64,000 nucleotides of DNA, from NCBI RefSeq assembly GCF_002234675.1, contig NC_019865.2, forward strand, positions 31,523,945-31,587,944, read 5' to 3'. The notes under the pieces are model-generated. The model was not told the DNA's origin. It saw nothing but the letters and a program-made list of their open reading frames with translations, and ran no database searches. The stretch comes from Oryzias latipes. Its lineage: Eukaryota > Chordata > Actinopteri > Beloniformes > Adrianichthyidae. The position numbers were made by a program, and so were the translations under genes. This document shows, one piece after another, positions 12,959 to 58,195 of this stretch (position 1 is the stretch's first letter; each line of letters opens with the position of its first letter).

Positions 12959-15895
12959 TCGTCTCTGCTCCTGTACTTGGTCATGTACTTTGTTTCTGCT
13001 CCTGTGCTTGGTCGTGTACTTCGTCTCTGCTCCTGTACTTGGTCGTGTGCCTTGTCTCTGTTCCTGTACTTGGTCGTGTACCTTGTCTATGCTCCTTTAC
13101 TTAGTCATGTACTTTATCTCTGCTCCTGTACTTGGTCGTGTACCTTGTCTCTGTTCCTTTACTTAGTCGTGTACTTTGTCTCTGCTCCTTTACTTAATCG
13201 TGTACTTTGTCTCTGCTCCTGTACTTGGTCGTGTACCTTGTCTCTGTTCCTGTACTTGGACGTGTACCTTGTCTCTGCTCCTTTTTAGTTAGTCGTGTAC
13301 TTTGTCTCTGCTCCTGTACTTGGTCGTGTACCTTGTCTCTGTTCCTGTACTTGGTCGTGTACCTTGTCTCTGCTACTTTACTTAGTCGTGTACTTTGTCT
13401 CTGCTCCTGTACTTGGTCGTGTACCTTGTCTCTGTTCCTGTACTTGGTCATGTACCTTGTCTCTGCTCCTTTACTTAGTCGTGTACTTTGTCTCTGCTCC
13501 TGTACTTAGTCGTGTACTTTGTCTCTGCTTCTGTACTTGGTCGTGTACCTTGTCTCTGTTCCTGTACTTGGTCGTGTACTTTGTCTCTGCTCCTGTACTT
13601 GGTCGTGTACTTTGTCTCTGTTCCTGTACTTGGTCGTGTGCTTTGTCTCCGTTCCTGTACTTGGTCGTGTACTTTGTCTCTGTTCCTGTACTTGGTCGTG
13701 TGCTTTGTCTCCGTTCCTGTACTTGGTCGTGTACCTTGTCTCTGCTCCTGTACTTGGTCGTGTACTTTGTCTCTGTTCTTGTACTTGGTCGTGTACTTTG
13801 TCTCTGTTCCTGTACTTGGTCGTGTACTTTGTCTCTGCTCCTGTACTTGGTCGTGTACTTTGTCTCTGTTCCTGTACTTGGTTGTGTACTTTGTCTCTGC
13901 ACCTGTACTTGGTCGTGTTCTTTGTCTCTGTTCCTGTACTTGGTCGCGTACTTTGTCTCTGCTCCTGTACTTGGTCGTGTACTTTGTCTCTGCTCCTGTA
14001 CTTGGTCGTGTACCTTGTCTCTGTTCCTGTACTTGGTCGTGTACCTCGTCTCTGCTCCTTTACTTAGTCGTGTACCTTGTCTCTGCTCCTTTACTTAGTC
14101 ATGTACTTCGTCTCTGCTCCTGTACATAGTCGTGAACTTTGTCTCTGCTCCTGTACTTGGTCGTGTACCTTGTCTCTGTTCCTGTACTTGGTCATGTACC
14201 TTGTCTCTGCTCCTTTACTTAGTCGTGTACTTTGTCTCTGCTCCTGTACTTAGTCGTGTACTTTGTCTCTGCTCCTGTACTTGGTCGTGTACTTTGTCTC
14301 TGTTCCTGTACTTGGTCGTGTACTTTGTCTCTGCTCCTGTACTTGGTCGTGTACTTTGTCTCTGTTCCTGTACTTGGTCGTGTACTTTGTCTCTGCTCCT
14401 GTACTTGGTCGTGTACTTTGTCTCTGTTCCTGTACTTGGTCGTGTACTTTGTCTCTGCTCCTGTACTTGGTCGTGTACTTTGTCTCTGTTCCTGTACTTG
14501 GTCGTGTGCTTTGTCTCCGTTCCTGTACTTGGTCGTGTACCTTGTCTCTGCTCCTGTACTTGGTCGTGTACTTTGTCTCTGTTCTTGTACTTGGTCGTGT
14601 ACTTTGTCTCTGTTCCTGTACTTGGTCGTGTACTTTGTCTTTGCTCCTGTACTTGGTCGTGTACTTTGTCTCTGTTCCTGTACTTGGTTGTGTACTTTGT
14701 CTCTGCACCTGTACTTGGTCGTGTGCTTTGTCTCTGTTCCTGTACTTGGTCGCGTACTTTGTCTCTGCTCCTGTACTTGGTCGTGTACTTTGTCTCTGCT
14801 CCTGTACTTGGTCGTGTACCTTGTCTCTGTTCCTGTACTTGGTCGTGTACCTCGTCTCTGCTCCTTTACTTAGTCGTGTACCTTGTCTCTGCTCCTTTAC
14901 TTAGTCATGTACTTCGTCTCTGCTCCTGTACATAGTCGTGAACTTTGTCTCTGCTCCTGTACTTGGTCGTGTACCTTGTCTCTGTTCTTGTACTTGGTCG
15001 TGTTCTTTGTCTCTGCTCCTGTACTTGGTCGTGTACCTTGTCTCTGTTCCTGTACTTGGTCGTGTACTTTGTCACTGTTCTTGTACTTGGTCGTGTTCTT
15101 TGTCTCTGCTCCTGTACTTGGTCGTGTACCTTGTCTCTGTTCTTGTACTTGGTTGTGTACTTTGTCTCTGTTCCTGTACTTGGTCGTGTACTTTGTCTCT
15201 GTTCTTGTACTTGGTCGTGTTCTTTGTCTCTGCTCCTGTGCTTGGTCGTGTACTTTGTCTCTGCTCCTGTACTTGGTCGTGTTCTTTGTCTCTGTTCTTG
15301 TACTTGGTCGTGTACTTTGTCTCTGCTCCTGTACTTGGTCGTGTACTTTGTCTCTGCTCCTGTACTTGGTCGTGTTCTTTGTATCTGTTCCTGTACTTGG
15401 TCGTGTACTTTGTCTCTGCTCCTGTACTTAGTCGTGTACTTTGTCTCTGCTTCTGTACTTGGTCGTGTACCTTGTCTCTGTTCTTGTACTTGGTCGTGTT
15501 CTTTGTCTCTGCTCCTGTGCTTGGTCGTGTACTTTGTCTCTGCTCCTGTACTTGGTCGTGTTCTTTGTCTCTGTTCTTGTACTTGGTCGTGTACTTTGTC
15601 TCTGCTCCTGTACTTGGTCGTGTTCTTTGTCTCTGTTCTTGTACTTGGTCGTGTACTTTGTCTCTGCTCCTGTACTTGGTCGTGTACTTTGTCTCTGTTC
15701 TTGTACTTGGTCGTGTACTTTGTCTCTGCTCCTGTACTTGGTCGTGTACTTTGTCTCTGTTCCTGTACTTGGTCGTGTACCTTGTCTCTGCTCCTGTACT
15801 TGGTCGTGTACCTTGTCTCTGTTCCTGTACTTGGTCGTGTACCTCGTCTCTGCTCCTTTACTTAGTCGTGTACTTCGTTTCTGCTCCTGCTCCTA
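12959..15895. repeat. 31-bp minisatellite (~94 copies) with an 806-bp higher-order unit
   Basis: The unit is TGTACTTGGTCGTGTACTTT + GTCTCTGCTCC (31 bp), with variants GCTCC/GTTCC/GTTCTT, TACC/TACT/TTCT and AGTCG/GGTCG. The distinctive variant GTACATAGTCGTGAACTTTG occurs at about 14123 and again at about 14929, exactly 806 bp (26 units) apart. Neighbouring variants repeat in the same order, so a 26-mer block has been duplicated. Because 31 is not divisible by 3 and the unit lacks stops in all three frames, long open frames appear in every + frame; I do not regard them as genes. The array lies between the divergent Nudix and gmeb2 promoters. Confidence 0.95.
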
Positions 15896-17291: not shown

Positions 17292-20200
17292 ATGGCTGCA
17301 TCAGACGTCGGCATGAGTGAGGTGGTGATCGTCACCCTTCCAGAGGCCGTGGAGCTCCCGTCGGTGGTGGAGGAGGACAAAGCCGTGCTGGTGACTGCAG
17401 AGCTGGCACCTCAGGCTGGGTAACACACACTCCACATGTGATGGCAGCGTCAGAACCCCCTCACACATGTGAACCCCAGAACCGCCTCTCTGAGCCTTTG
17501 ACCTCTAACTGATGATCTACAGGAAGACGTGGATGTCAGTCATTGAAGAGCAATGTTTGGTTTCTTCAGTGGTTAGCTGAGGATTCAAACCTTCTCACTC
17601 CTATTAGACGGTCACTGTGAGGACAGAATGAGCCGAATAATGGACGTAGTGCTTTTAAATGACGCTGACATTCACGTGAAAGCAACCATTGGGTAAAGTA
17701 GAATATTGAGAACATACAAATGCATTATTCCTGAAGTCTGGCTCACTGATATTCATGGACGGCAAGCCTAACTAAGAATGTTTGACCTCCTTAGACCTGG
17801 GGCCTCATTTATAAAACTTTGCGTAGGATTTGCGTCAGAAGTGGCGTACGGATGAAACATAGGACGTGCGTACGCACAGAAATATTCGGAGTTATAAAAC
17901 CGTGCGCACGCACATCCTACGCATCTTTCCCTTAATAAATCACAACCAATTCTAAATGCAGCGCAGCTTTTGCGGCCTCATGACACGCCCATAGTTGCCC
18001 ATAAATAGTCCGTGAAACGCCCACAAATGAATATTCATTGATTGTGAAATCATGGCAAACACAGAGAGAAAATCAAAAAAACGTAACTTCACTCAATGTG
18101 AAGTAGAAGTTATCGTTGGCGAGGTGGAAAAGAGGAGAATAATGTTGTTTGGAGGGCACAGTGTGGGCATTACTAATGCCAAAAAGGCACTTGAGTGGCA
18201 GACGGTGGCAGACGCCGTAAATGCTGTAGCCTCACAACCTCGGACCGTGGCCGAAATAAAAAAGAAAAGATCGGACATCAAAGTCGAGGCAAAAAAACGT
18301 CTAGCGCTGAACCCCCCCCCCCCCCCCACACACACACACCCGTGTCTGCCACGGGTGTGTGGGGGGGGGGGGGACACCGGAGCTGACCCCTCTTGATGAG
18401 AGACTGGCGGCTATTATTGGGGAATCCCTATTAAGTGGAGTGGTGACTGAGGCGCAGGGGAACACCGACGCGCCAGATGCACCGGGTGACACACCCCCAA
18501 AAGCTCCAACAGATGTGTTCACTCCGAATTCTTCCATTTGCCACATCTTCTAAGAGCGCAAGATCAGCCATTGTGCGTCATTACGCATTGTGATGCGGCA
18601 TTTTATTTCCCTCCATTTAATTACATCTGACAAGCTACAGATGTCCGTAATAATCGACGTGGAAAAGGGAAATTGATCAGCAAATGTAATTTCTTGTTGC
18701 TTTCTGAATGGTTGAGACATACGTCATACATTGTTTTATCAAAAATAAAACAAACTAAAGGCATATGCATGAATACCACAATTCCATAGCTTATGAAGAA
18801 ATGTTTTACTATGAAAACAACTTTCCCCAGTGGACAATTAATGCATCTCTCTCTATCTATACATCTGTCTGTCTGCACCTATATCGTCTCCTCCAGACGG
18901 ACACATTAACGAGAATATCAGTTTTGTACATTATTTCGTTCTGTTAACTATATTATTTATGAGGATGAATTGCACTACATGCCAATATTGCAGAACATAT
19001 TTCACTTTTCTTTTTGCAAATATGTGTTCATTTGAATTTCTGTTGTAATTTTCGTTTGATTTTTTTGTTTGTTTCACTGCTGATCGATCAAACGGGTGTT
19101 GGTGTAGCTGTTAATTGTAAGACTTTCTTTGTGAAGTCTTCATGTTATTTATGAGAGGAAGTATTGTCATTTTCACTTTCACGTGTTTCTTCCATCTGCC
19201 GACGGTGTCGCCGTTTCTCATTTCACCCGTTTTTGTGCGTGCGCCTGGGTCAGAGCTTGCGTGAAGGACCGCACATTTTCCCGTCAAGTTTGCTTTTTAT
19301 AAATATCAACTATTGCGTAGAGAGTGGCGTACGCCTTCTTTTGTGCGTACGCAACGTTTATAAATGAGGCCCCAGGTGTCCACATGTGTGGACACCTCAG
19401 TCTTCTTTACGCAGATCCTGTGATACACGTGTTGGGTGTTAGCTTTAATATTAGCGAGGGTCTTAAGAGGTTAAAGTGGAGAACGGAGCGCTGCCAGAGG
19501 GTTTGCGTTTGTCTGCACCTCTGTAGATAGAAATTCAACTTCAAGCATGTAGTTTCTCAGAGCACTTTGAGGCAAACTTGTTTCTCTGTTGTTGGTGTAA
19601 CCCTTGTGCTATCCTAGGCACTTCAACGTTGGGAGTTGGGTCATCTAGACCCACTAGACAGTGCTCTAAACCTTTTTTCTTCAATGATTTGTGATCTTCA
19701 CTGGTGTCCATGGATTACATGAACTCCTCTTCACCTTGTGTGTCAATGTAAGGGCGGGATCGTCTGGACCCCATAAGATAGCACAAGGGGTAAACCTTTG
19801 GTTTGGATCACCAGAATGTTTTAAAAGAGTTTACAAATATTCCTCAATTTAAAAAAATGATGTAAATTAATCTTCAAACGATTCAAATATATTCTCTTGA
19901 AGAAGATTAGAGAAGTTAAAAGGAGCCATTGTGAGAAGTTTCTTGTATGATGTTGGGTTGATGACATTTGCAGCAGGTCGGTCACAGGTTTTATTTTCAT
20001 TAGTGTTAACTGAAGTACACAACCTAGCTGAGGTTGTGTACTTTCATGAAACTATGAAAAATTCGAACCAAAACGTAAAAGAAACAAACATTTCTTTCTT
20101 GAAAGTGTTCGTAAAAGCATTCTTTGAAATGTTCATCTGTTGTATCTGCATGAAGTGCCATTGAGCAAACGGACAACGTACTGTAGAAACGACCTGAAGC

Positions 20201-23200
20201 TGTTAGCATGCGGATTCCACACGCGACGCTTCCAAGAGCTGAGCTGCTGTTTCCAGCACAACAGTTGGTCCTCTGTGTGTTTGGTCTGAAAATGATGAGT
20301 TCATACACTGAGTATCATCAAATAAAAATGCTTTTTATTAAGAAAAGTTTCAAGATTGTCTTCCTGAGGAAAACCTGTGTTTTGTCAGGGAGGACGTGCT
20401 CACCGTGGCGCCCGTGGAGGCCGAGGCCAGCGACGCAGCTTCTCTGTCAAAGGAAGAGACGGTCATCGGTAAGCTGCTTCCTCTGAACGTGTCTGCCGTC
20501 TGTTCCAGGATGTTTCCTATCCTCTGGCCTGCTGTGAACTGACTGCCCTCTTTTCCTGACTGCAGTGAAGTTATCGGAGGAGGTGGACGTGGAGGCTGAC
20601 GTCTTCTACCCCATCACCTGTGGGGACGCCAAAGCCACGCTGGTGTGGAAGAAGTTTGTGTGTCCTGGGATCAATGTGAAGTGTGTGCAGGTACTCTCTC
20701 TGTGAAAGGCTTTTCTACGGTGGCCGAGAACCGCCATTGCAGCAAAAAAAAAGGAACTTCAAAACAAAACACGGATGCAAAAGTTTCCTTTTGTTTGTAG
20801 TTACTTTTTTGGTTTTTCAATTCAATTTTTTCAATTCAGTTTTATTTGTATAGCCCAAAATCACAACAACAGTCGTCTCGATGGGCTTCGAAGTAAAACA
20901 TGAAATCAAAAGGATCATGAATACAAAGAGTTCAATAGAAAAATACTAAAATGAACTAACAAACTGACTAAGCTATACTGGCATCCCTGCCCTTAGACCC
21001 CCCTTCGCGGTAAGGAAAAACTCCTAAAAAAACGGATTCCGGAAAAAAGGAGAAACCTCAGGGGTGCCCACATGAAGGAGGGATCCTCCCCCAGGACGGA
21101 CAGGCGATTTACCAGAAATCTTAGAGAAGAATTAACTTATCTAAATCTACAACTACATATATAAAGTCCAGCAGACAAGCTTCATCCAGCCGTGGTTGTG
21201 GGGACAGTCAAAGGCGCGAGTCGAGCCGGAGACGGGAACCACAGCCAGGTGTAGAACAGTAGTAGAGCTGAGCCAGAAACGAGGTCAACGGTCAGGAACT
21301 GGAGCACGGATGAGCCAACTGGAATCTGGAAGCACTCCCACTCACCTGGAAGGGAGAGGGAAAGAGGGACAATACATGAATCGCACTGTACCAGACAAAG
21401 GCATGGAGAACTAAAGGATGAATAATGATCAAGAATAGAGGAGAGAGGAAGGGTAGAAGTAGATGAGAAAAGAGGACAGAACCCCAGAGCACCATAGTTA
21501 CCCCAGCTTCAACTTCTAGCAGCCTTTTAAAACAAATAGTTATTGTTATTAAGTTTAATTTAAACACATTAACATTATGTTAAATAATCTCTGAATACTA
21601 GCTAGTCTGATAAAAAGCCTGTCCAAAGAGGAATGTTTTCCGTCTAACTTTGTTTGCAGTTACTTTTTTGTTTCAGTTGTTTTTTTTGGCCCAAAACTGT
21701 GGATTGATATTTCTGCCACCACGTTGCACACAAAACTTTCTTAATGAAAATATTAAATATTTGATTTTCAAATTTTTTTCTTTTGCTTTCAAATTTTTCT
21801 TTTGCTTTCAAAAATATTTTTGCTCGCAAACCATGTTTTTGCGTGCGTTGTGTCACATCTCGTTTTTTTCCTATCTTTGGTTTTGCTGACCACTCTGAGT
21901 GCGACTTACGCTGCATTTCCACTGCAGGTCTTGATGCCCAAATCCGATTTTCTGACTATATCCGATTTTTTTGACGACCCGCTTACATCATCTTTCAAAA
22001 GTGACCCGTATGCGATTTTTGCATTTACACTACACAATGCTGAAACTATCAAACGTAGACGTTCTGAGGACTACGTAGCAGCATTTCCGCCTTCTGCGGA
22101 CCTCCTTCAGACTTTTGTGTGACTGCGGTTGTCATGGAGGCAACGCAGCGACGGAAGGAGGCGTTGCCTTGGGCGCTCCAGAGGGGAGAGTAAAAAGGAG
22201 GGCTGCTCGGCCGGCTTATGTGCTTTCTCTGAATTTTGAATGAGGAAGTGTTTGCAGACGTTGTGCTAACAGTTTGATCCAAGTGTTGAACCTTTCCTGC
22301 GTGATGACTTTTCTTTTTCCGACCGTGGTCAGAAACGCACAGGAGATTTTCTCCAGGGCCGAAGGCGGATTCACTTTCGGGGTTCACTTTCCCGTTCTGA
22401 ACCCTCCGCCTCCAGAGTGGGTTAAGAAAAGACTCCACACACACACACGTACGCGCGGTCCCCATCATACACGCCCCCACTCCGCAACAACACAAACAAA
22501 GATATAACCGGCTTCTAGCCTGTTCCATAGCAACGGTGTCCAGCTTGATTAGTTACCGTTTGCGTCCCGACCGGGACCGGGACGGAAATAACAGCGGTTT
22601 ACGACTACAGTCTGAAGCCTGAGGCTGAAAGGTAACACGCTGACAGCAAAATCACCACAAAGGCACCTATAATAAGTCATGTGATCTCAGTTGGTGGTGT
22701 CCTGAGTTGACGTCACTGACGTACGACTCGCATTTACTGGGGAATATCCGATTTGTCTGCTTACATGGCACACGCAAATGCACGTATCCGATTCGTATCC
22801 GATCTATTTCCACATATGAATGAGGCCTGAATCCGATCTGAGAAAATCAGAACACAGCCACAGCCAAAAAGGTTTTGACATGCGTTGTGTGTCATCTCAC
22901 TTTTTCCTATCTTTGATTCCTTCTGACAGTTTCAGTTTAGCGTTACAAAGCTGCCATCAAACAGCTGCTGATTGGTCCAGATTCTAACCAATCAGGTGTC
23001 TGTGTCTGGTATTGACGGTGGTTGGAGGCAGACATGGACTTTGTGTCGATTCTGTTCTATCGGGGTTCTGCCGTCTTCAACCAGTCTGGCTCGTTTCTCT
23101 CAGAGTTAAACCCAGAAGGAGCAGCAAAGCAGCTAAAATGAAACAGGTTTTGTATTTATTCTTGTCTGTGTAGAGACCAACGTGTTTAAAATGTCTGCAG

Positions 23201-26200
23201 CAGAAAAAAAAAGCCGGGCTCCGACTCTGTCCAGCAGGAAGTAACACTTTTTAAGATTTGTATCTGAAATATTGTTTTATTTTAATTAATAAATGTTGAA
23301 ATTTTTATTTTATTTTTTTTATTTACCCAGGCTGTGTCCCACCAAGGTGGGGTAGCCTAGACAAGGCACACAATTTTAGCTCCCTCTGTCTCTTCCCCAA
23401 ACCCTCCTCCTTCAGTGTGTGAGTGCGTGTGTGTATGTGCGTGTGACTGGTCTGAGGCCTGGTCTAAGCCACACCACACTGCACCAGGGTCAGCTGCACA
23501 CTCCAGTGTGGGCACCTCCACAGCAGGGCCTCAGCCAAGGCTGGTTTCCCCTTGCCGCTTCATCCCAAGACCAGACCTCTACCACACCCATCCATTCATT
23601 CATACACAATCTCCCTCCACCCATCCCTGTCCTGAGCAGCCTCTCTCCCCTGCACCACAGTCATCCCTCTTGCATTTAGCGCTCTTTTTACACCCTCTGT
23701 CCATCCCATTCGCGGTCTTCCTCTCATTCTCACTCCACTCACATCAGATTCATATACCTTTTTCACCAAACGCTCCCTTTCCATTCTTTCAACATGGCCA
23801 AACCATCCCAGTGCCTTTTGCTCTGCTCTATAAGCCAACTCTCGCATCACACCAGTTCTCTCTCGGATGACTTCATTTCTCTGACGATCCATACGCGTCA
23901 CACCACAGATACTCCTCAAACATCTAAAATAAATGTTGAAATATTAAGAGAAAATAGCTTTTTTTTAATGAGTAATTTTTTTTAAAACTTTGGACAAACG
24001 CTCACGAGTTCTAAAACATAAGACCAATTAGCAGCTGTTTGATGGCAGCTTTGTCAGACTATACGGAAACTAATGTTAAGGAAAAAGGGAGATGACACAC
24101 AACGCATGCGAAAACGTTTTTGGCTGTGGCAGTTATGTCACGCTAAGTCGCGCCCAGAGGAGGATCAAAGATAGGAAAAAAGGAAAAAACCGGGATGTGA
24201 CACAACACATGGGAAAACGTGTTTTGCAAACGCCAAAAAAAGTTTTTCAAAGCAAAGAAAAATTGAAATAAAAAAAAATTTGAAAAGCAAATATTTAATA
24301 TTTCGTTTGCTACTTGAGTTTTGTGGGCAACGTAGTGGCAGAAATATAACTCCATAGAAAACCACCATTGCACAAAGAAAGTAACTGCAAAACAAAAAAG
24401 CGATGCAAAAGCTTTCTTTTGTTTGCAGTTACTTTTATTTGCAGTTACTTTTTTTGTTTGCAGTTACTTTTTTGTTTGCAGTTACTTTTTTATTTGCAGT
24501 TACTTTTTTGTTTGCAGTTACTTTTTTTGCCCCCAGTTACTTTTTTATTTGCAGTTACTTTTTTGTTAGCAGTTACTTTTCTGTTTGCAGTTACTTTGTT
24601 TGTAGTTACTTTTTTGTTTGCAGTTACTTTTTTTGTTTGCAGTTACTGTTTTATTTGCAGTGATTTTTTTTCTTTCCAGTTACTTTTTTATTTGCAGTTA
24701 CTTTTTTATTTGCGGTTACTTTTTTATTTGCAGTTACTTTTTTGTTAGCAGTTACTTTTTTGTCTGCAGTTACTTTGTTTGCAGTTACTTTTTTTTCTTT
24801 GCAGTTACTTTTTTGTTTGCAGTTACTGTTTTATTTGCAGTGATTTTTTTTTCTTTCCAGTTACTTTTTTATTTGCAGTTACTGTTTTGTTTGCAGTTAC
24901 TTTTTTATTTGCAGTTACTTTTTTGTTTGCAGTTACTTTTTTATTTGCAGTTACTTTTTTATTTGCAGTTACTTTTTTTCTCTGTTACTTTTTTGCTCTG
25001 TTACCTTTTTATTTGCAGTTACTTTTTTTTCTCTGTTACTTTTTTATTTGCAGTTACTTTTTTGTTTGCAGTTACTTTTTTATTTGCAGTTACTTTTTTG
25101 TTTGCAGTTACCTTTTTATTTGCAGTTACTTTTTTATTTGCAGTTACTTTTTTATTTGCAGTTACTTTTTTCTCTCTCAGTTACTTTTTTGCTCTCAGTT
25201 ACTTTTTTATTTGCAGTTACCTTTTTATTTGCAGTTAATTTTTTTGTTTGCAGTTACTGTTTTATTTGCAGTGATTTTTTTTTCTTTCCAGTTACTTTTT
25301 TATTTGCAGTTACTTTTTTATTTGCAGTTACTTTTTTGTTTGCAGTTACTTTTTTTCACTGTTACTTTTTTTCTCTGTTACTTTTTTGCTCTGTTACTTT
25401 TTTATTTGCAGTCATTTTTTTTGCCCTCAGTTACTTTTTTATTTGTAGTTACTTTTTTGTTAGCAGTTACTTTTTTGTCTGCAGTTACTTTGTTTGCAGT
25501 TACTTTTTTTCTTTGCACTTACTTTTTTTGTTTGCAGTTACTGTTTTATTTGCAGTGATTTTTTTTTCTTTCCAGTTACTTTTTTATTTGCAGTTACTTT
25601 TTTATTTGCAGTTACTTTTTTGTTTGCAGTTACTTTTTTTCTCTGTTACTTTTTTTCTCTGTTACTTTTTTGCTCTGTTACTTTTTTATTTGCAGTTACT
25701 TTTTGTTTGCAGTTACTTTTTTATTTGCAGTTACTTTTTTATTTGCAGTTACTTTTTTTTCTCTGTTACTTTTTTATTTGCAGTTACTTTTTTGTTTGCA
25801 GTTACTTTTTTGTTTGCAGTTACCTTTTTATTTGCAGTTACTTTTTTGTTTGCAGTTACCTTTTTGTTTGCAGTTACTTTTTTATTTGCAGTTACTTATT
25901 TGTTTGCAGTTACTTTTTTGTTTGCAGTTACTTTTTTTAAGGGAGCCAGTTTAGCTCGTGCTGGTTTGCGGCGCCTTCCGTCCGTGAAACCAGGGTTCGA
26001 CTCCGGGCTGCTCCCTGTTCCCTTCTCTACCTCTGTACCGGTTCCAAGCCCGGTTTGAGAAGGTTGCGTCAGGAAGGGCATCCGGCGTAAAACATTGCCA
26101 AGTTTACCTTGCGACTTGTTCGCTGTGGCGACCCCTGATGGGAGAAGCCAAAAGTGGAAGACTTATTTGTTTGCAGTTACTTTTTTGTTTGCAGTTACTT

Positions 26201-29200
26201 TTTTGTTTGCAGTTACTTTTTTGTTTGCAGTTACCTTTTTATTTGCAGTTACTTTTTTGTTTGCAGTTACTTTTTTTCTCTCAGTTACTTTTTTGCTCTG
26301 TTACTTTTTTATTTGCACTTACTTTTTTGTTTGCAGTTACTTTTTGTTTGCCGTTACTTTTTTTGTTTGCAGTTACTTTTTTATTTGCAGTTACTTTTTC
26401 ATTTGCAGTTATTTTTTTTCTCTCCGTTACTTTTTTGCTCTCAGTTACTTTTTTATTTTCAGTTACTTTTTTGTATGCAGTTACTTTTTTTTATTTGCTG
26501 CAATGGCGGTTCTCGGCCACCGTGCTTTTCCGCATGTCAGATAAATCGATACAGTGAATGTCAGAACACCGGGTTCATGAAACCTGAGGAAAACTGCGGG
26601 CCTGTGGTGGAAACACTCCACCTGTCTGATGAACGACAACAAGCTCCAGTGTGTTGCTGTGTGTGATGCTGATGTGCACATCTTTGTCGTCTCTGCAGTT
26701 CAACGAGCAGCTCATCAGTCCCAAAGAGTTTGTGTGTTTGGCGGGAAAGTCCACGCTGAAGGACTGGAAGAGAGCCATTCGGCTGAACGGCACCATGCTC
26801 AGGTCAGAACTCCTTCACGGACTGCAGCTTCACAGAAAAACGCTTACAAGTTCTGATGGAGCTAAATCCTCTGTTCAGGTCTTCAAGGTCTGCTTTAGTC
26901 ATTTCTAAAGGCTGCAGATGCAGAGATGCTGCTGCAGTAACATCCAGTTCTCCTGCTTTTATACTAGCTACAGTTTTCTAGGTCACCAAAAACACTTCTT
27001 ATACCGTGGTCCGGGTGAATCCTGGATGAATCCTGGATTCTGATTGCCTGCTGGGTTTGCATTAAAAATGATAATCCACAGTGATAACCACACGCCTAAG
27101 AAAGTAGTTCTGGCCACATATCTTAAATGTTCTGTATCACTGCGCCGGCTTCTTTAAAACAAACTTCATCTTCTTCATCTGGACAAAAACAAGCGGTAAG
27201 GGGAGAACTTTCTCTCTGATCTGATGCTTTATTTAACCTTGAAGACCATCGGCATAGATATCGCTTTCCTTTGTCGCTGCAGCTGAGGACCACGCCGGCT
27301 GAGCTGCAGCACGTAACAAATAATCCGCTTTTTGTGAAAATGCAATCTAAACCGAAATAATGACAACAATAAAGGACTAAAAACTGGTTGAATATGTCTT
27401 TCTTTTGTACGTGACCATGTTATAAGCGGGTTAATGAACCCCCACGACGTGTGTTAATTTTGATAATGCACACTTTGAAGGCCATTAAGCCTTACATCCA
27501 AAATGTGTAAGAGCTGGAAACAGACGGTTTTCAGTCGCTGCTCTGGTTTGGAGGCTTCAGGTGAGGTGTTGGTACACAGAAGAGTCTCCAACAGCTCAGT
27601 GAAGGGGATTTAAGAGATGCTGCAGCTGCTTGTTCTTCGGTCCTGTTCTGAACGTTGGAGTACATTTAGCCTCATAAATGCAGGAACAAAATCCATGTGT
27701 GCATCAGGTACGGTGGCCCTGAGGGTCAAATCACATCAGGAAAAAAAAACATTAAAGATCATCATAATTAAAAATGTAAAACAAATAATGAAAGAAGCAT
27801 CAGATTTTAGAATTTAAAGCAAAATTCCAGAAACCCAAACTGAATTTTTAAAAGAATGAAACAAAATAGAAAGGAAAAGTTTGGAAAAGCAAAAGTCATT
27901 TCCAGAGATCAAAGTAAAATGTTGAAAAAAGAAAATAGAAGAAGAAACTGGAACAGGTAGGTCCGATGGGACGATGACCTTTGTTCACCTTTTCTACTGG
28001 ACGTTATTTGGCTTTGTGACATTTTCAGACAGTTTCTTTAAGCTGCTGACCACGCCCACCACCAGAGTTTAGCCATTGATCAATCAAGCCAGAGTTCAGG
28101 TAGAACCTCCTCCTGCTTTCCTTCTTCTTCAAACTTAGACGTTATCATCCAGTCAGAGACATCCCATCGTACCCTCCAGTTCCAGCTTCTTCTTTTGTTT
28201 CATTTTTAACTTTTCCATTTCTGGAAACGGCCTTTTTGTCTGAAATCTTTTTTTCTGTGGTGTTTTTTGGAATTTTGTTTCTGCTTTCTAAAATGTAATG
28301 CTATTTTTTCCTGTTTGTTTTGCTTTTTCATTGTTGTGATCTGTCTTTTGATTTGCTTTGTGTGATTTGATGAGGGATTCGTACTTCAGGCCACCATTAA
28401 AAAGACTCCCAACAAATATTAAAAAAAAAAAAATCTTTATTCCAAACATTGAAATGAGGAAGGAACATAGAACAACCAAACAACCGCAACCGTTTGACAT
28501 GATGAAACCTGGAAACCTAACATTTCCTTTCAAAATAAGAGTCCGGCGTAGGCACAAGTGTTAGCAGGGTTTTCCTTCTCTCACTGAGTTCCTTACCAAC
28601 CATACAGATTGTAAAAGTGGACTTTCCGCTGCTGCAGCTCTTTAATCACTTGAGACGGAAAACGTCCCTCTGAGCGGCTCCTAACATTCCCATCTGGTTC
28701 TGGTTTCATAGGAAGATCATGGACTCTGGTGAGCTGGACTTCTATCAGCACTCTAGGGTCTGCTCCAACACCTGCCGCAGCACCAAGATAGATCTGGTGG
28801 GAACTAAGGTATCCCTCTGCAGCGATCAGTCGGACGTGCTTTCTGCAGCCTCGTCCTCCGCTGACCGTGAGTCTGTGACCTCCTCCTATCCCAGCATCCT
28901 TCACACACCAGCTGGACTCCGGGGTTCTACCCGGATGTCTGTTGTTCAGTGCTGTGCATCAAGTGTGTAGTCGGTTAAGCACCAGACTAAAGGAAAGCTG
29001 CAGACCCACAAACACCCATGCAGACCCATGCAGACCCATTCAGACATATGAAGTCACATGTAGACCCATGAAGACACATGTAGACCCATGAAGACACATG
29101 TAGACCCATGAAGACACATGTAGACCCATGCAGACCCATGCAGACACATGTAGACCCATGCAGACCCATGCAGACACATGTAAACCCATTCAGACAGATG

Positions 29201-32200
29201 AAGACACATGTAGACCCGTGAAGACACATGTAGACCCATGAAGACCCATGGAGACCCATGTAGACCCATGGACACATGTAGACCCGTGAAGACACATGTA
29301 GACCCATGAAGACACATGTAGACCCGTGAAGACACGTGTAGACCCGTGAAGACACATGTAGACCCGTGAAGACACATGTAGACCCGTGAAGACCCATGTA
29401 GACCCATGGACACATGTAGACCCATGAAGACACATGTAGACCCATGCAGACACATGCAGACCCATTCAGACAGATGAAGACACATGTAGACCCATGGACA
29501 CATGTAGACCCTTGAAGACACATGTAGACCCATGAAAACACATGTACACCCATTCAGACAGATGAAGACATATGTAGACCCATGAAGACACATGTAGACC
29601 CATGGACACATGTAGACCCATGGACACATGTAGACCCATGTAGACACATGTAGACCCATGTAGACCCACGTGGACCCGTGAAGACACATGTATACCCGTG
29701 AAGACACATGTAGACCCGTGAAGACACATGTAGACCCGTGAAGACACATGTAGACCCGTGAAGACACATGTAGACCCATGTAGACCCGTGAAGACACATG
29801 TAGACCCATGTAGACCCATGAAGACCCATGTAGACCCATGGACACATGTAGACCCATGAAGACACATGTAGACCCATGAAGACACATGTAGACCCATGCA
29901 GACCCATGCAGACACATGTAGACCCATGCAGACCCATGCAGACACATGTAAACCCATTCAGACAGATGAAGACACATGTAGACCCATGCAGACACATGTA
30001 GACCCATGCAAACACATGTAGACCCATTCAGACAGATGAAGACACATGTAGACCCATGAAGACACATATAGACCCATGGACACATGTAGACCCATGAAAA
30101 CACATGTAGACCCATTCAGACAGATGAAGACATATGTAGACCCATGAAAACACATGTAGACCCATGGACACATGTAGACCCATGGACACATGTAGACACA
30201 TGAAGACACATGTAGACACATGTAGACCCATGTAGACCCACGTGGACCCGTGAAGACACATGTATACCCGTGAAGACACATGTATACCCGTGAAGACACA
30301 TGTAGACCCGTGAAGACACATGTAGACCCGTGAAGACACATGTAGACCCATGAAAACACATGTAGACAAATGTAGACCCATGGATACATGTAGACCCGTG
30401 AAGACACATGTAGACCCATGAAGACCCATGTAGACCCATGGACACATGTAGACCCGTGAAGACACATGTAGACCCATGAAGACACATGTAGACCCGTGAA
30501 GACACATGTAGACCCGTGAAGACACATGTAGACCCATGTAGACCCATGAAGACCCATGTAGACCCATGGACACATGTAGACCCATGAAGACACATGTAGA
30601 CCCGTGAAGACACATGTAGACCCATGTAGACCCATGAAGACCCATGTAGACCCATAGACACATGTAGACCCATGAAGACACATGTAGACCCATGAAGACA
30701 CATGTAGACCCATGCAGACCCATGCAGACACATGTAGACCCATGCAGACCCATGCAGACACATATAGACCCATGCAAACACATGTAGACCCATTCAGACA
30801 GATGAAGACACGTGTAGACCCATGAAGACACATATAGACCCATGGACACATGTAGACCCGTGAAGACACATGTAGACCCATGAAGACACATGTAGACCCG
30901 TGAAGACACATGTAGACCCATGAAAACACATGTAGACCCATTCAGACAGATGAAGACATATGTAGACCCATGAAGACACATATAGACCCATGGACACATG
31001 TAGACCCGTGAAGACACATGTAGACCCATGAAGACACATGTAGACCCATGGACACATGTAGACCCATGAAGACTCATGTCGACCCATGTAGACACATGTA
31101 GACCCATGGAAACATGTAGACCCATGTAGACCCACGTGGACCCGTGAAGACACATGTAGACCCGTAAAGACACATGTAGACCCGTGAAGACACATGTAGA
31201 CCCATGAAAACACATGTAGACAAATGTAGACCCATGTAGACCCATGGATACATGTAGACACACACGGACCCACGTGGACCCTTGAAGACACATGTAGACC
31301 CATGCAGACCCATGAAGACAGATGTAGACCCATGCAGACCCATGAAGACAGATGTAGACCCATGTAGACCCACGCCATCTTTATTTCATAGATGATATTA
31401 TTTCATTAGTTCAAATGTTGGTTGAAAATAGTCAAAGTCAGATCAAACTTGTGTCGTCTCCTCCTGCTTTCCCTCTGTCTGTCTCATGACATGTGAAGCC
31501 CCGCCCCTGCTCTCTCCTGGTAGGTATATTTGTGCGTGTGTGGGTGGGGGGGGTCACATGTGGCTGTTTTTTGATCAGCTGACTTAAGTGAGGCGTGTCT
31601 CTTGGATTTGGACCTGTAGTTGTTCAATTGATAAGAATATTTTCTCTCAAATGACAAGAAGTTAGATCTGCTTTTTACCCAAAAGACAGTTTACTGAAAT
31701 GAAACCAACAATTTATTCCTGTTCTGTGTGTGTGTGTGTGTGTGTGTGTATATTTGTGTGCGTGTGTGTGCATATGTCTGTGTGTGGGCGTTTGTGTGCA
31801 TTTGTGTGTGTGTGCATGCGGTGCTTGTGTGTGTGTGTGTGTTGCAGTGAACGGAGCCGCTGCATCTTTGTCAGAGGGGATGGAGGAACCCTCAGAGTGG
31901 GTCACAGCGATTGGAGGTGATCAGCTTCACACACACACACAGACAGACTCACACACATAGGCACACACACAGATTCACACACTCACACACACACACACAC
32001 ACACACCCTCACACACACAGGCATAACGCGCCGCATTATGGGAACAGGCAAACATCCTCAGTGTGTGTGTTGGTCCAGAGGACTCGGTGACGTTCTGGCG
32101 GGCTGTGAAGGAGGCGGGTCTGCTGGAGGAGGTGGTGGAGGACTTTCAAAAGGAGCTGCAGGAGGTGTTGAAAGGTCTGCAGGAGAGGGTGTATGATCCT

Positions 32201-43417: not shown

Positions 43418-44977
43418 CCTGGGGCCTCATTTATAAAACTTTGCGTAGGATTTGCGTCAGAAGTGGCGTACGGATGAAACATAGGACATGCGTACGCACA
43501 GAAATATTCGGATTTATAAAACCGTGCGCACGCACATCCTACGCATCTTTCCCTTAATAAATCACAACCAATTCTAAATGCTGCGCAGCTTTTGCGGCCT
43601 CATGACACGCCCATAGTTGCCCATAAATAGTCCGTGAAACGCCCACAAATGAATATTCATTGATTGGGAAACCATGGCAAACACAGACAGGAAATCAAAA
43701 AAACGTAACTTCACTCAATGTGAAGTAGAAGTTATCGTTGGCGAAGTGGAAAAGAGGAGAAAAGTGTTGTTTGGAGGGCACAGTGTGGGCATTACTAATG
43801 CCAAAAAGCCACGTGAGCGGCAGACGGCGGCAGACGCCAAATGCTGTAGCCTCACAACCTCGGACCGTGGCCGAAATAAAAAAGAAATGGTCGGACATCA
43901 AAGTCGAGGCGAAAAAACGTCTGGCGATGCATCGCCAGAGTGTGTCTGCCACGGGGGGGGGGGGGACTGGCACCGGAGCTGACCCCTCTTGATGAGAGAC
44001 TGGCGGCTATTATTGGGGAATCCCTTTTAAGTGGAGTGGTGACTGAGGCGCAGGGGGACACCGACACGCCAGGTGCACCGGGTGACACACCCCCAAAAGC
44101 TCCAACAGATGCGTTCACTCCGAATTCTTCCATTTGCCACATCTTCTAAGAGCGCAAGATCAGCCATTGTGCGTCATTACGCATTGTGATGGGGCATTTT
44201 ATTTCCCTCCATTTAATTACATCTGACAAGCTACAGATGTCGGTAATAATCGACGTGGAAAAGGGAAATTGATCAGCGCAAATGTAATTTCTTGTTGCTT
44301 TCTGAATGGTTGAGACATACGCCATACATGGTTTTATCAAAAATAAAACAAACTAAAGGCATATGCATGAAAACCATAATTCCATAGCTTATGAAGAAAT
44401 GTTTTACTATGAAAACAAATTTCCCCAGTGGACAATTAATGCATCTCTCTCTATCTATCCATCTCTCTCTGTCTGCACCTAGATCTGCTCCGCCAGACGG
44501 ACACATTAACGAGAATATCAGTTTTGTACATTATTTCGTTCTGTTAACTATATTATTTATGAGGATGAATTGCACAACATGCCAATATCGCAGAACATTT
44601 TTCACTTTTCTTTCTGCAAATAAGTGTTCATTTGGATTTCTGTTGTAATTTTCGTTTGATTTTTTTGTTTGTTTCACTGCTGATCGATCAAACGGGTGTT
44701 CATGTAGGCTGTTAATTGTAAGACTTGCTTTGTGAAGTCTTCATGTTATTTCTGAGAGGCAGTATTGTCATTTTCACTTTCACGTGTTTCTTCCATCTGC
44801 CGACGGTGTCGCCGTTTCTCATTTCACCCGTTTTTGTGCGTACGCCTGGGTCAGAGCTTGCGTGAAGGACCGCACATTTTCCCGTCAAGTTTGCTTTTTA
44901 TAAATATCAATTATTGCGTAGAGAGTGGCGTACGCCTTCTTTTGTGCGTACGCAACGTTTATAAATGAGGCCCCAGG
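43418..44977 (+). mobile_element. Myb/SANT-encoding DNA transposon, copy B
   Basis: Same CCTGGGGCCTCATTTATAAA ends and interior as copy A at 17796-19376, with only scattered differences across 1.56 kb. It is inserted in the left terminal region of a hAT MITE. Confidence 0.78.
43674..44149 (+). pseudogene. transposon Myb/SANT-like protein, copy B, frameshifted
   Basis: Starts MANTDRKSKKRNFTQCEVEV. Relative to copy A it lacks 2 bases near 43836 (gacgccgtaaatg versus gacgccaaatg), which shifts the frame within the DNA-binding domain. The later parts (NAVASQPRTVAEIKKKWSDI; TPLDERLAAIIGESLLSGVV) continue in other frames after a second break in a 14-G run (about 43953-43966). Confidence 0.8.
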
Positions 44978-54727: not shown

Positions 54728-55098
54728 ATGACAATAAACAATCTCCTCATTGAACTTAGACTTAGAGTAACTCCATTTGAAGTTATTTAGAGCTGTCAGA
54801 CACAGCAGCACCACCTAGGGGTTACATAAAGTGGCGAGCTAGCCAGGAGATTGTTGCAGCATTTATATTTGACACCACCTCAGTTTTTGATAACTGCTTG
54901 TACGTTGTTTACAAAATGAACATTTGTAATTAATTTGATTTGCACGGGCCTAGTTGTCTGTATGTAACAGGCATAAGTGATGCTTATACTGACACTGACA
55001 TTGCTGCTTATTTTAAAGTCAATGGGGATATTAAGAAAATAGTAAGAGTCCCTGATGACCCAGATCAGCCCTAAGGCAGAGTTCTTATTGAGTATGCT

Positions 55099-56590
55099 AT
55101 GGAGCGAACAGTATCAAGACTTGATCCTGCACAACTGGGCAATCAACCGAGCCCTAATGATCCAGATGGTACTTGGTATGTCAAAACCATTCGCGAAGTA
55201 TGTCAAGAGGAGCTGGGAAGAGAGTTGGCCCAGGGGTGTCTAGCTGAATTAAGCTCCCTTGCAGGTACTAGTAAAACTAGCTTTTGGGATGCTTTGCAGC
55301 CTGAAGGGCAAAAAGCCCAGCCTGATTTTGTCCTTCCTTCAAGTCCAGATACTCACCTTCACTCTCCTGATCAGCTTGCTACTACCATAAGCAAAGAAGG
55401 TGAGGCTCGTGTGCTAGGTGCAGTTCGGTCTAACGCCACCAAGGAAATTCCACAAAATCCAGGCGTTCACAATATTCCATTGAGTGCTGCTACAGATGCT
55501 CCCATTTTTGATGAAGCCACTGTGAACCCCCCTTACGTTCAAAAGGTCATTGTGGAGCACTTTATTCGAAATGACTCATCAACCTCCAGCTATAGCCAAA
55601 GCCGGATCAGAACTTTCTCTGGGCGGGTGCCAAAACCAAACGGCGAGGTTGATTACGATGCCTGGCGCACCCAGGTAGACTTGCTTCTCAGCGATCTGTC
55701 ATTGTCTGACTTCCAAAAAGTCCGAAGAATTTTGGAAAGCCTTCTTAGCCCAGCTGCTGACATTGTCAAGCCACTTGGGACAAATGCAGCTCCCCAGACT
55801 TATCTCAGTCAGCTTGATTCTGCATTTGGAGTTGTAGAAGATGGTGAAGAGCTATTTGCTACATTCTTAGGCTCCAACCAAAATTCAGGTGAAAAACCTT
55901 CCATCTACTTAAACCGTCTACAAACTCTTCTGACTAAAGCCATATCTAGAGGGGGAGTCTTAGCTACTGAATCAGATAAATATTTGCTTCGGCAATTTTG
56001 TAGGGGCTGCTGGGACCAAAGTCTAATAGTTGGCCTCCAGCTTGAGAAAAGCAAATCTGCCATCATTCCCTGAATTATTGCTACTTTTGAGGACAGAAGA
56101 AGATCGAAGAGCAGCCAAAATCGATCGCATGAAGAAGCATCTGGGAAGCACAAAGGCCGCAACACACATGCATTCAGTCTTAAGCATGCCAGTAATTGAA
56201 AATGAACCAGCCACAGCAAAGAAACATGACATTAGTTCAAAACTCGAAAAGGAAGTGGCAGAGCTCCGCAAACAAGTGGAAAAGCTAACACAAGAAGGGA
56301 GAAAGGAGCAGAAACCAGAGAGGGTTCAAGTTAACCTCACGAAAGGTGAACTGTCCATCCAAAGTGAACATTTAGTTGCTCATGCTTTAAACAGAAACCC
56401 AGTTGCTGAAACACCTACTCCACCTAGGCCTTGGTTCTGTTTTAAGTGTGGAGCAGATGGACACATTGCAGCAAAATGCAGTTTTGAAGCCAATCCTGGC
56501 CTTGTCCGACGAAAGAATGCAGAGATCAGAGACAAGAGAGATCAATTCTGGGCCCAACATGCAGCCCACATAACATCTTTAAACTGGTAG
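55099..56590 (+). pseudogene. PNMA-like Gag with one frameshift
   Basis: First frame 55099-56073: N-terminal part, then FSGRVPKPNGEVDYDAW (about residue 175), the capsid-like region also found in the domesticated PNMA and ZCCHC12/18 proteins. The frame ends early. The continuation (FPELLLLLRTEEDRRAAKID, a Lys/Glu-rich helix, and zinc knuckle CFKCGADGHIAAKC, C-x2-C-x4-H-x4-C) is in the next frame, 56030-56590. The switch lies within about 56040-56075. A single-base indel is more likely than programmed frameshifting because it splits Gag itself, before the knuckle. Confidence 0.85.
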
Positions 56591-56601
56591 AGGCTGCTGC
56601 C

Positions 56602-57591
56602 GTGGGACGACCGGGAGCTGAAGACCAAAATCAGATAAGTCCCATAGCAATGACTCTTAGTGAATGTTTCCCAGAACACAACAATGAGCCGAATGTTAAA
56701 CTGCCTCCTGGACTTGTAGGTCCCCGCTGTACCTCTAAAGTCACTGTAGGAGACGTAACATGTGAATCCATTCTTGACACCGGCTACCAAGTAACAACTA
56801 TTTCAGAAACTTTTCACTCTAGGCACTTGTCAACCCTACCTATTCAGCCAATACACCAGCTTCTCGAGGTTGAAGGTGCTGGAGGACAGTCAGTGCCTTA
56901 TCTTGGTTATGTCGAAGTCCTTCTAACTTTTCCTGAGAGTGTAACTGGCACCAAAGAGCAGTTATCTGTTCTTGCACTCATTGTTCCAGAATGTCACTTT
57001 AACAGCCGAATTCCAGTTTTGGTAGGCACCAATGTCTTGTTACAGCTCTACCAATGTGGGGTTAGTCATGACAAGTTCCAGTTTCTTAAGAGGTCAGACA
57101 GCATTGCTCTTCTGCTCCAGCATGTAGTTCAGGTGCATAAGAGTGAAACTAAGGCCTGTCTGGTGAAGTTACATGGGGAGAAGCCCATTACTATTCCAGC
57201 TAGACATAGAATGTGCCTTTTTGGAGATGTTGGAGTGGGAAAATCAAATCCCCACACTTCTTTTGTCCTTGAACCCCCTGAGCCTTCATCTTTGCCTGGA
57301 GGGTTGTTTCTCCAGTGCGCGCTAATTAACATTAACACTAAAGCCTCAAGCAAGATTCCTGTTGTCTTAAGTAACACCACAGATCACAATGTTACCCTGC
57401 CCTCAAAGTGTATCATTGGAAGAGTATCTGCTGTACAGAGTGTAATGACCTCAACTTCTACGCTGCTTGCTGATTCTCATACATCAGTTGGCAAACATTC
57501 ATTCAACCTCAGTGAGTCCCCAGTGCCTGAGGAGTGGAAACCATGCATTGTAGACAAACTCAACTCGATCCCTGAAGTTTTTTGCAGCTAA
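56602..57591 (+). pseudogene. retropepsin-type aspartic protease domain and linker
   Basis: Contains the catalytic ILDTGYQVTTIS motif (D-T-G) near residue 58, followed by flap-like and IPVLVGTNVL segments typical of gypsy proteases, then a linker to RT. The frame closes with a stop at 57591 just before the RT frame, so the Pol polyprotein is broken here. The original start is unlikely to be this ATG. Confidence 0.8.
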
Positions 57592-58195
57592 TGATCTTTC
57601 TTTTGGCCACACTTCTGCAGTAAAGCATCATATCCGTTTGCAGGATGAGACACCCTTCAAAGAGCGATCGAGGCCCATACATCCCAGCGATCGAGAAGCT
57701 GTTAGACAGCATCTCCGAGAACTGCTGGATGCAGGGATTATAAGAGAATCCGAGAGTCCATTTGCATCACCAGTAGTCGTTGTAAAGAAAAAGAATGGGC
57801 AAATTAGGCTGTGCATCAACTATAGAAAACCTAACACTCGTACCATCAAAGATGCGTATGCCCTTCCCAACATTGAAGAGACCTTTTCAGCCTTGAACGG
57901 AGCTAAATGGTTCTCAGTGATGGACTTGAAGTCTGGTTATTACCAGGTGGAAATGGCAGAGGAAGACAAACCAAAAACCGCATTCACATGCCCATTAGGT
58001 TTTTATGAATTCAATCGTATGCCACAGGGCATCACAAATGCACCCAGCACATTCCAACGCCTTATGGAGAAATGTGTTAGTGACTTGCATCTATGCGAAG
58101 TTCTGGTGTTTTTAGATGATCTTATTGTCTTCTCCCAGACACTCGAAGAGCATAAGGCGAGGCTCATGAAAGTGTTGTCGTCTAAAAAGCTATGA
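57592..58195 (+). pseudogene. gypsy reverse transcriptase, truncated
   Basis: Seen: SPFASPVVVVKKKNGQIRLC, DLKSGYYQVEM, FNRMPQGITNAPSTFQRLM and the active site FLDDLIVFS (usual YxDD-type box as F-L-D-D). The frame stops within the thumb because the element is deleted into its 3' LTR. Confidence 0.9.

Follow-up and report, generated by a model that had tools for sequence, protein, structure and literature searches.

According to the excerpted account of fungal families in PMC12730594, transposons of the IS3EU superfamily are flanked by 6-bp target-site duplications and possess terminal inverted repeats of more than 30 bp, with termini of the form TAYGG..CCRTA. Internal tandem repeats of Tetris, a foldback transposon of Drosophila virilis, are described in the available part of its report as having seeded longer satellite arrays (PMC4079207), and the corresponding extract on Galileo, a foldback-like member of the P-superfamily, places extra transposase binding sites in the tandem repeats of its long terminal repeats (PMC3688188). 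Here we describe an element that occupies intron 3 of a GMEB-type gene in Oryzias latipes and that carries, at one end, an array of 18-bp units; we classify it as IS3EU-type, since its features appear to fit that superfamily. The locus lies within a stretch of 64,000 nucleotides (assembly GCF_002234675.1, contig NC_019865.2, positions 31,523,945 to 31,587,944 of the forward strand), which is hereafter called the window and whose first letter is position 1. On the sense strand of the gene the units resemble 3' splice sites, and as a property of the sequence this likeness is real; we consider it probably incidental, with exon 3 being spliced to exon 4 over the array.

Exons 3 and 4 join in phase 0, and their peptide matches the SAND domain of GMEB1 across the junction (PDB 1oqj, E 3e-34; also Pfam SAND); judged by this homology, the junction is correct. 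The name GMEB-type reflects an assignment that covers gmeb1 and gmeb2 alike. Intron 3 extends from 20691 to 26698 (6008 nt), of which the transposon occupies 5.8 of 6.0 kb; the intron minus the element and one duplication measures 193 nt. The array consists of two plus-strand blocks of the unit TTACTTTTTTRTTTGCAG (Table 1), and wrap-around alignment to this unit yields 103 copies of at least 13 nt, 70 of them exactly 18 nt long. Most units begin with TTAC (95 of 103) and end in AG (86) or, more narrowly, CAG (84), and a subset terminates in CTCTG instead of CAG. Of the sequence GCAGTTACTTT the array holds 56 copies and of TTTGCAGTTAC 61, and elsewhere in the window each is present only once on the plus and once on the minus strand, these stray copies all lying inside the same transposon, and the recurrence of the unit is not due to chance. 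The first-pass annotation of this DNA had reported about 100 such units in two blocks on the sense strand ahead of exon 4, and both count and place proved right; the distance that it gave between the array and the true acceptor at 26698/26699, about 200 bp, measures 203 nt, and the acceptor itself reads CTCTGCAG/TT as described (a slash marks the splice boundary). Its statement that every unit has CAG goes too far, given the count of CAG ends above.

The units fall into 39 types, the two commonest being seen 24 and 18 times. Across 105 aligned rows, a number that takes in partial units, the TTAC columns are kept in 97 to 103 rows and the G of AG in 101, and the A of AG is kept in 88, making it the third least conserved of the 18 columns. 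Column conservation thus appears to show no sign of selection for acceptors, although the test is a weak one because recombination can homogenize array units. Higher-order repeats were too weakly indicated to be claimed: the longest exact run of unit types is 5, and 200 shuffles also reach 5, with a mean of 3.1. The two blocks are a single array interrupted by an inserted repeat at approximately 25938-26160, which we take to be like a short interspersed nuclear element (SINE). ARAGORN found no tRNA in 20600-26800. The flanks of this insertion (25893-25938 and 26160-26206) share a stretch of some 44 nt, which the array may have blurred; such a length exceeds that usual for SINE duplications. 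Two further arrays lie in the window. At 12961-15889 a 31-bp unit whose plus strand is rich in pyrimidines is repeated 94 times, upstream of an exon at 17292 that resembles an early coding exon of the GMEB-type gene, and at 29014-31372 some 240 copies of the 10-bp unit ACCCATGTAG are located between stretches resembling later exons of that gene.

Splice sites were scored, in bits, with acceptor and donor matrices of Shapiro-Senapathy-type frequencies, rather than with MaxEntScan. The 91 AGs scored in the array, one of which comes from the insert beside block two (other counts use 90), have a median of 8.78 bits, with 84 at 6 or more and 71 at 8 or more. Among 3993 other plus-strand AGs, only 215 reach 6 bits and 85 reach 8, and the real acceptors of exons 3 and 4 score 7.30 and 5.99. 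The description of the units as acceptor-like in the first-pass annotation, which was to fall if scores lay near background, is therefore upheld. AGs of at least 5.99 are scarce in the other arrays (31-bp array, 1 of 17 on the plus and 0 of 511 on the minus strand; 10-bp array, 0 of 211 and 2 of 3) and absent from the minus strand of the 18-bp array (0 of 138).

The element that bears the array is flanked by a perfect 6-bp duplication, CTTTTC on either side. Its ends are paired by blastn (20717-20769 with 26523-26469, 87.5% over 56 columns), and GGTGGCCGAGAACCGCCATTGCAGCAAA occurs in the window as two facing copies, one at 20719 and one at 26521, all 28 bases searched being identical in both; the same search for facing ends gave a mean of 0.00 in 100 shuffles. 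Apart from the true acceptor, all that the first-pass annotation described falls between these two copies. The terminal inverted repeats therefore exceed 30 bp, as in IS3EU (28 identical bases within a 56-column match). With respect to TAYGG..CCRTA, the left terminus TACGG fits and the right terminus CCGTG is one base off. The left end is present a second time immediately ahead of the array, and this copy includes a palindrome of the 18-bp unit at 24378-24435. Foldback elements have, at both ends, long terminal inverted repeats composed of tandem repeats; here the right end has about 103 units and the left end a few. A longer, 8-bp duplication (GCTTTTCT/GCTTTTCC, 7 of 8 matching) was rejected, since comparison of copies gives 6 bp and puts the terminal T/A inside the element, and assignments to hAT, P, Zisupton or Mutator were dropped along with it. 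Seven Rfam matches were likewise set aside, all being under gathering scores and five of them lying over the palindrome near 24347-24485. The insertion at 23288 is, we assume, derived from a long interspersed nuclear element (LINE); Pfam gave no match to it. Exact scans found 0 copies of the inverted repeat in viral contigs, and 0 and 0 copies of a unit pair in viral and in bacterial/archaeal contigs.

Table 1. Features of intron 3 and its surroundings in the window (slash, splice boundary; a point, no strand assigned).
Feature	Position	Strand	Basis or remark
Exon 3, GMEB-type gene, first half of SAND domain	20566..20690	+	donor CAG/GTACTC
Left target-site duplication CTTTTC	20710..20715	+	comparison of copies
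DNA transposon, IS3EU type (putative), 5809 bp	20716..26524	.	TACGG...CCGTG ends; later insertions inside
Left terminal inverted repeat and subterminal stretch	20716..20771	+	blastn
Inner inverted arm, left	21649..21872	+	73.7% over 232 columns to 24181-24396, inverted
LINE-like insertion (presumed)	23288..23945	-	flanked by 18-nt near-duplication AATAAATGTTGAAATTTT / AATAAATGTTGAAATATT
Inner inverted arm, right	24181..24396	-	match to 21649-21872
Second copy of the element's left end	24357..24436	+	82% over 83 columns to 20726-20808
Minisatellite block one, 18-bp acceptor-like unit	24429..25936	+	wrap-around alignment, tandem-repeat detection
SINE-like insertion (presumed) interrupting the array	25938..26160	+	flanks share a variant stretch starting ACTTATTTG
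Minisatellite block two, abutting the right terminal inverted repeat	26161..26495	+	wrap-around alignment, tandem-repeat detection
Right terminal inverted repeat and subterminal stretch	26469..26524	-	blastn
Right target-site duplication CTTTTC	26525..26530	+	comparison of copies
Branch-point candidate (A of CTGAT) for the true acceptor of exon 4	26672	+	26 nt from its AG
Exon 4, GMEB-type gene, second half of SAND domain	26699..26802	+	acceptor score 5.99; donor CAG/GTCAGA at 26803

Relatives of the element are present elsewhere in the genome. With up to 3 mismatches, the inverted repeat produced 97 end matches in the 734 Mb and 25 contigs searched, a lower bound for such ends, and the reversed control produced 0. 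Against these 97 we examined 54 ends in 39 loci (numbered L, the window included), a few of which, such as L012, were found only at more than 3 mismatches. Fifteen pairs were chosen by eye from neighbouring opposite matches, leaving out L045/L046, where the ends are 16 kb apart; these copies range from 113 to 9362 bp, and their 6-bp duplication, in a register picked after viewing 8-bp comparisons, is perfect in 11, has one mismatch in 2 and is missing in 2 (L044 and L054). All but one of the 15 begin with TA, and all but one end with TA, the window copy being the one that ends in G. L043 and L048 hold 8.76-kb copies with open reading frames (ORFs) that match by eye, in opposite orientation as fetched, and the 272-aa ORF of L043 contains an integrase core domain (PF24764, E 8.1e-24). 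A 133-aa ORF of these two copies had no Pfam match, and we take it to recall a HECT ligase. Separately, the near identity of the ORFs in L043 and L048 suggests recent movement.

Read inward from the right end of the element, the unit is CTGCAAAYAAAAAAGTAA. Its core, AGTAACTGCAAA, was found, one mismatch being allowed, in the first 150 nt inward of 16 of the 54 ends, and none of 385 control pieces had it on either strand; with the array abutting the inverted repeat, this bears out the first-pass annotation in deriving the unit from a transposon end. When units were counted (up to 3 errors, inward, 600 nt inside the end), 50 of the 54 ends held 0-4 and four held 7-22, namely the window right end (16), L009 (22), L011 (8) and L012 (7); the 16 units counted at the opposite end of L009 belong to its one array, approached from behind. 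As a control, the remaining 57.9 kb of the window holds 1 unit on the plus strand and 3 on the minus strand. The copy in L009 (C13, 4483-5293) is 817 bp long and is largely an 18-bp array between two inverted repeats, of 29.4 copies by Tandem Repeats Finder, 30 by fuzzy matching and 23 by splitting. Only two exact unit types are common to these 23 split units and the window array, so the two arrays were probably amplified separately, although later homogenization could look alike. The unit is similar to a short motif near some ends of the family, amplified to 103 copies here and to 23-30 in C13. An array of a different 18-bp unit, TGTCTGCAGTCACCTGTC, which also contains CAG, is present in 204 copies at 2454-6182 of L010 (C14), and the 9 kb fetched for L010 contain no inverted repeat of the IS3EU-type family.

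We propose the following history. A non-autonomous IS3EU-type DNA transposon would have entered an intron of about 193 nt in the GMEB-type gene, its right end, like the ends of some relatives, holding a short A-rich motif, AGTAACTGCAAAYAAAAA, that faces inward from the inverted repeat. This motif is most likely a transposase contact site, a role that the binding sites of Galileo and the array seeding of Tetris make probable by analogy. Unequal exchange or replication slippage would then have amplified it to about 103 tandem copies, after which the SINE-like insertion split the array. The motif would resemble a 3' splice site because the end that bears the array faces exon 4 on the sense strand of the gene, where it reads as a U-rich tract followed by CAG, and splicing of exon 3 to exon 4 would skip the array without effect from it.

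That the likeness is incidental is suggested by several features of the intron. The true acceptor comes with a branch-point candidate of its own and with a clean zone free of AGs, the nearest earlier AG being 49 nt upstream. Under the AG-exclusion rule for acceptor choice, the array would fall outside the scanning zone of the true acceptor, since CTGAT stands at 26 nt and 49 nt are free of any other AG. The array AGs, moreover, are mostly 18 nt apart and have no good donor behind them. Among 164 GTs in the array the best donor score is 2.5, and beyond 23489 no donor of 5 or more is met until that of exon 4 at 26803, leaving no usable donor downstream of the array for a decoy exon. The cryptic exons that the first-pass annotation had envisaged as bounded by the array can accordingly be discarded, and an acceptor in the array could only yield a long 5' extension of exon 4. 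Finally, the two matching ends could form a duplex in the RNA, with a predicted energy of -74.9 kcal/mol, compared with a mean of -17.6 and a minimum of -44.0 in 300 random pairs, and the inner arms give -188.7 kcal/mol, a figure that has no control. Pairing of the ends would bring the outer splice sites near each other and loop the array out, a property common to any inserted element with inverted ends.

Several observations weigh against this account. The window copy closes with G where CCRTA has A, and 38 of the 54 ends, including the left end of the window copy and those of L043, L047 and L048, which are long copies, lack the AGTAACTGCAAA core as searched, which makes the transposase-site role of the unit a guess. 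L009, L011 and L012 were chosen as matches to the array, so that the unit counts per end represent a non-random sample. Only 453 and 523 of 20000 shuffles each, with composition kept, match the scores of the two main units, from which the acceptor likeness is uncommon, though not extraordinary, for a T-rich unit. An A in a UNAY context lies at least 12 nt upstream of 85 of 90 array AGs, inside the AG-free zone of each (at 15 nt in 57 of the 85), and 84 of 91 array AGs score above the true acceptor of exon 4; these scores, high and numerous, weigh most heavily against our reading. The comparison with the true acceptor also favours a role as decoys in cis, in which U2AF and the U2 small nuclear ribonucleoprotein would load on the units and delay or divert splicing of intron 3, the products being retained introns or a 5'-extended exon 4 destined for nonsense-mediated decay, and unit number tuning output. 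The reading frame would permit such decay, for with any of the 90 array acceptors a premature stop would come ahead of the donor of exon 4, and if intron 3 is retained a stop falls at the fifth codon past exon 3. In the absence of a good donor to pair with the array, however, the exon to be defined would measure about 320 to 2400 nt by arithmetic; the 18-nt spacing of 56 of the 91 AGs reduces the distance from branch point to AG to about 15 nt, which is near the lower limit, and the stricter yUNAY occurs at only 5 of 90. We hold this unlikely. An effect of the array on splicing in cis, taken by itself, seems improbable, and similarly doubtful is a rheostat in which each unit would form a compact cassette of branch point, U-tract and CAG, and the end motif, in its hundred or so copies and variable in length, would act in cis on intron 3: U2AF would be held on the array, splicing would be slowed or diverted to decay, the inverted repeats would loop the array out and so limit the damage, and the output of the gene would be set by unit number and end pairing. 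Titration of U2AF or PTB in trans by a single intron is unlikely on general grounds.

The U-rich units might instead bind hnRNP C, PTB or similar proteins and so exclude U2AF, as in antisense Alu elements, a possibility to which we give some, though clearly lesser, credence and which is compatible with an incidental likeness, since it would be why the likeness has no effect. As far as the excerpted text goes, on continuous U-tracts hnRNP C takes the place of U2AF65 and guards against Alu exonization, but its strongest sites have nine or more U (PMC3629564), and the standard unit has six. Resemblance to acceptors would be expected too of sites for recursive splicing that cut the 6-kb intron stepwise, but these require AG followed by GT; AGGT occurs 0 times in the array, which refutes the proposal and leaves it practically no chance. 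Scarcely more credible is an ordinary intronic minisatellite without any link to a transposon. Such an origin would have company in two more large arrays of the vicinity (31 bp x 94, 10 bp x 240), but it is refuted by the position of the array, which directly adjoins the right inverted repeat of an element flanked by a perfect duplication, and by the presence of the unit or its core inside the ends of related copies elsewhere. An incidental likeness, with exon 3 joined to exon 4 across the array, remains the explanation that we prefer.

Other mobile elements have presumably left traces in the window. Two similar ORFs at 18031-18396 and 43653-43982 recall, in our estimation, a Myb/SANT-like transposon protein, and those at 55075-58195 we take to resemble the gag and reverse transcriptase of a Ty3-type retroelement.

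The locus provides a natural test object, in which some 86 acceptor-like units, most of them outscoring the real acceptor, stand roughly 200 nt from an exon whose gene is presumably still expressed. If splicing is normal here, it would demonstrate that cells firmly disregard sites which look like acceptors but have neither a donor nor a proper AG-free zone. The locus indicates further that the end motif of an IS3EU-type element can give rise to minisatellites in more than one copy within one fish genome. A literature search for minisatellites with cryptic splice acceptors in an intron returned no match, from which we claim no absence from print, and a term search for IS3EU in PMC3706591, PMC7599744, PMC2836005 and PMC5718144 found no mention in the text available from these sources.

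Among known systems of splice-site-like repeats, the minisatellite of the human interferon-induced 6-16 gene has multiple splice donors that are reportedly used; it likewise consists of tandem units resembling splice sites, but the sites are donors there and acceptors here. The cryptic acceptors of antisense Alu elements, which the portion of PMC3629564 considered describes as repressed by hnRNP C, similarly combine a U-tract and AG in an intronic transposon, whereas the window array has about 86 AG-ending units and no good donor. With IS3EU transposons the element shares a 6-bp target duplication, a TACGG start, inverted repeats about 30 bp long or longer and, in its long relative L043, an integrase-core protein. 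It departs from the fungal families that the compared account covers in its CCGTG terminus and in the roughly 103 tandem units at one end; no transposase was found in the window copy, which was not searched with the 272-aa protein of L043. Tetris, in the part of its description at hand, resembles the element as a DNA transposon whose tandem repeats grow into arrays, but its repeats are TIR-220, its duplications measure 8-10 bp and its authors suggest Mutator (PMC4079207), as against 18-bp units, mainly at one end, and a 6-bp duplication here. Galileo, so far as the extract describes it, is comparable in having tandem repeats at the element end and differs in belonging to another superfamily, and the transposase binding attributed to its repeats is, for the unit described here, only putative.

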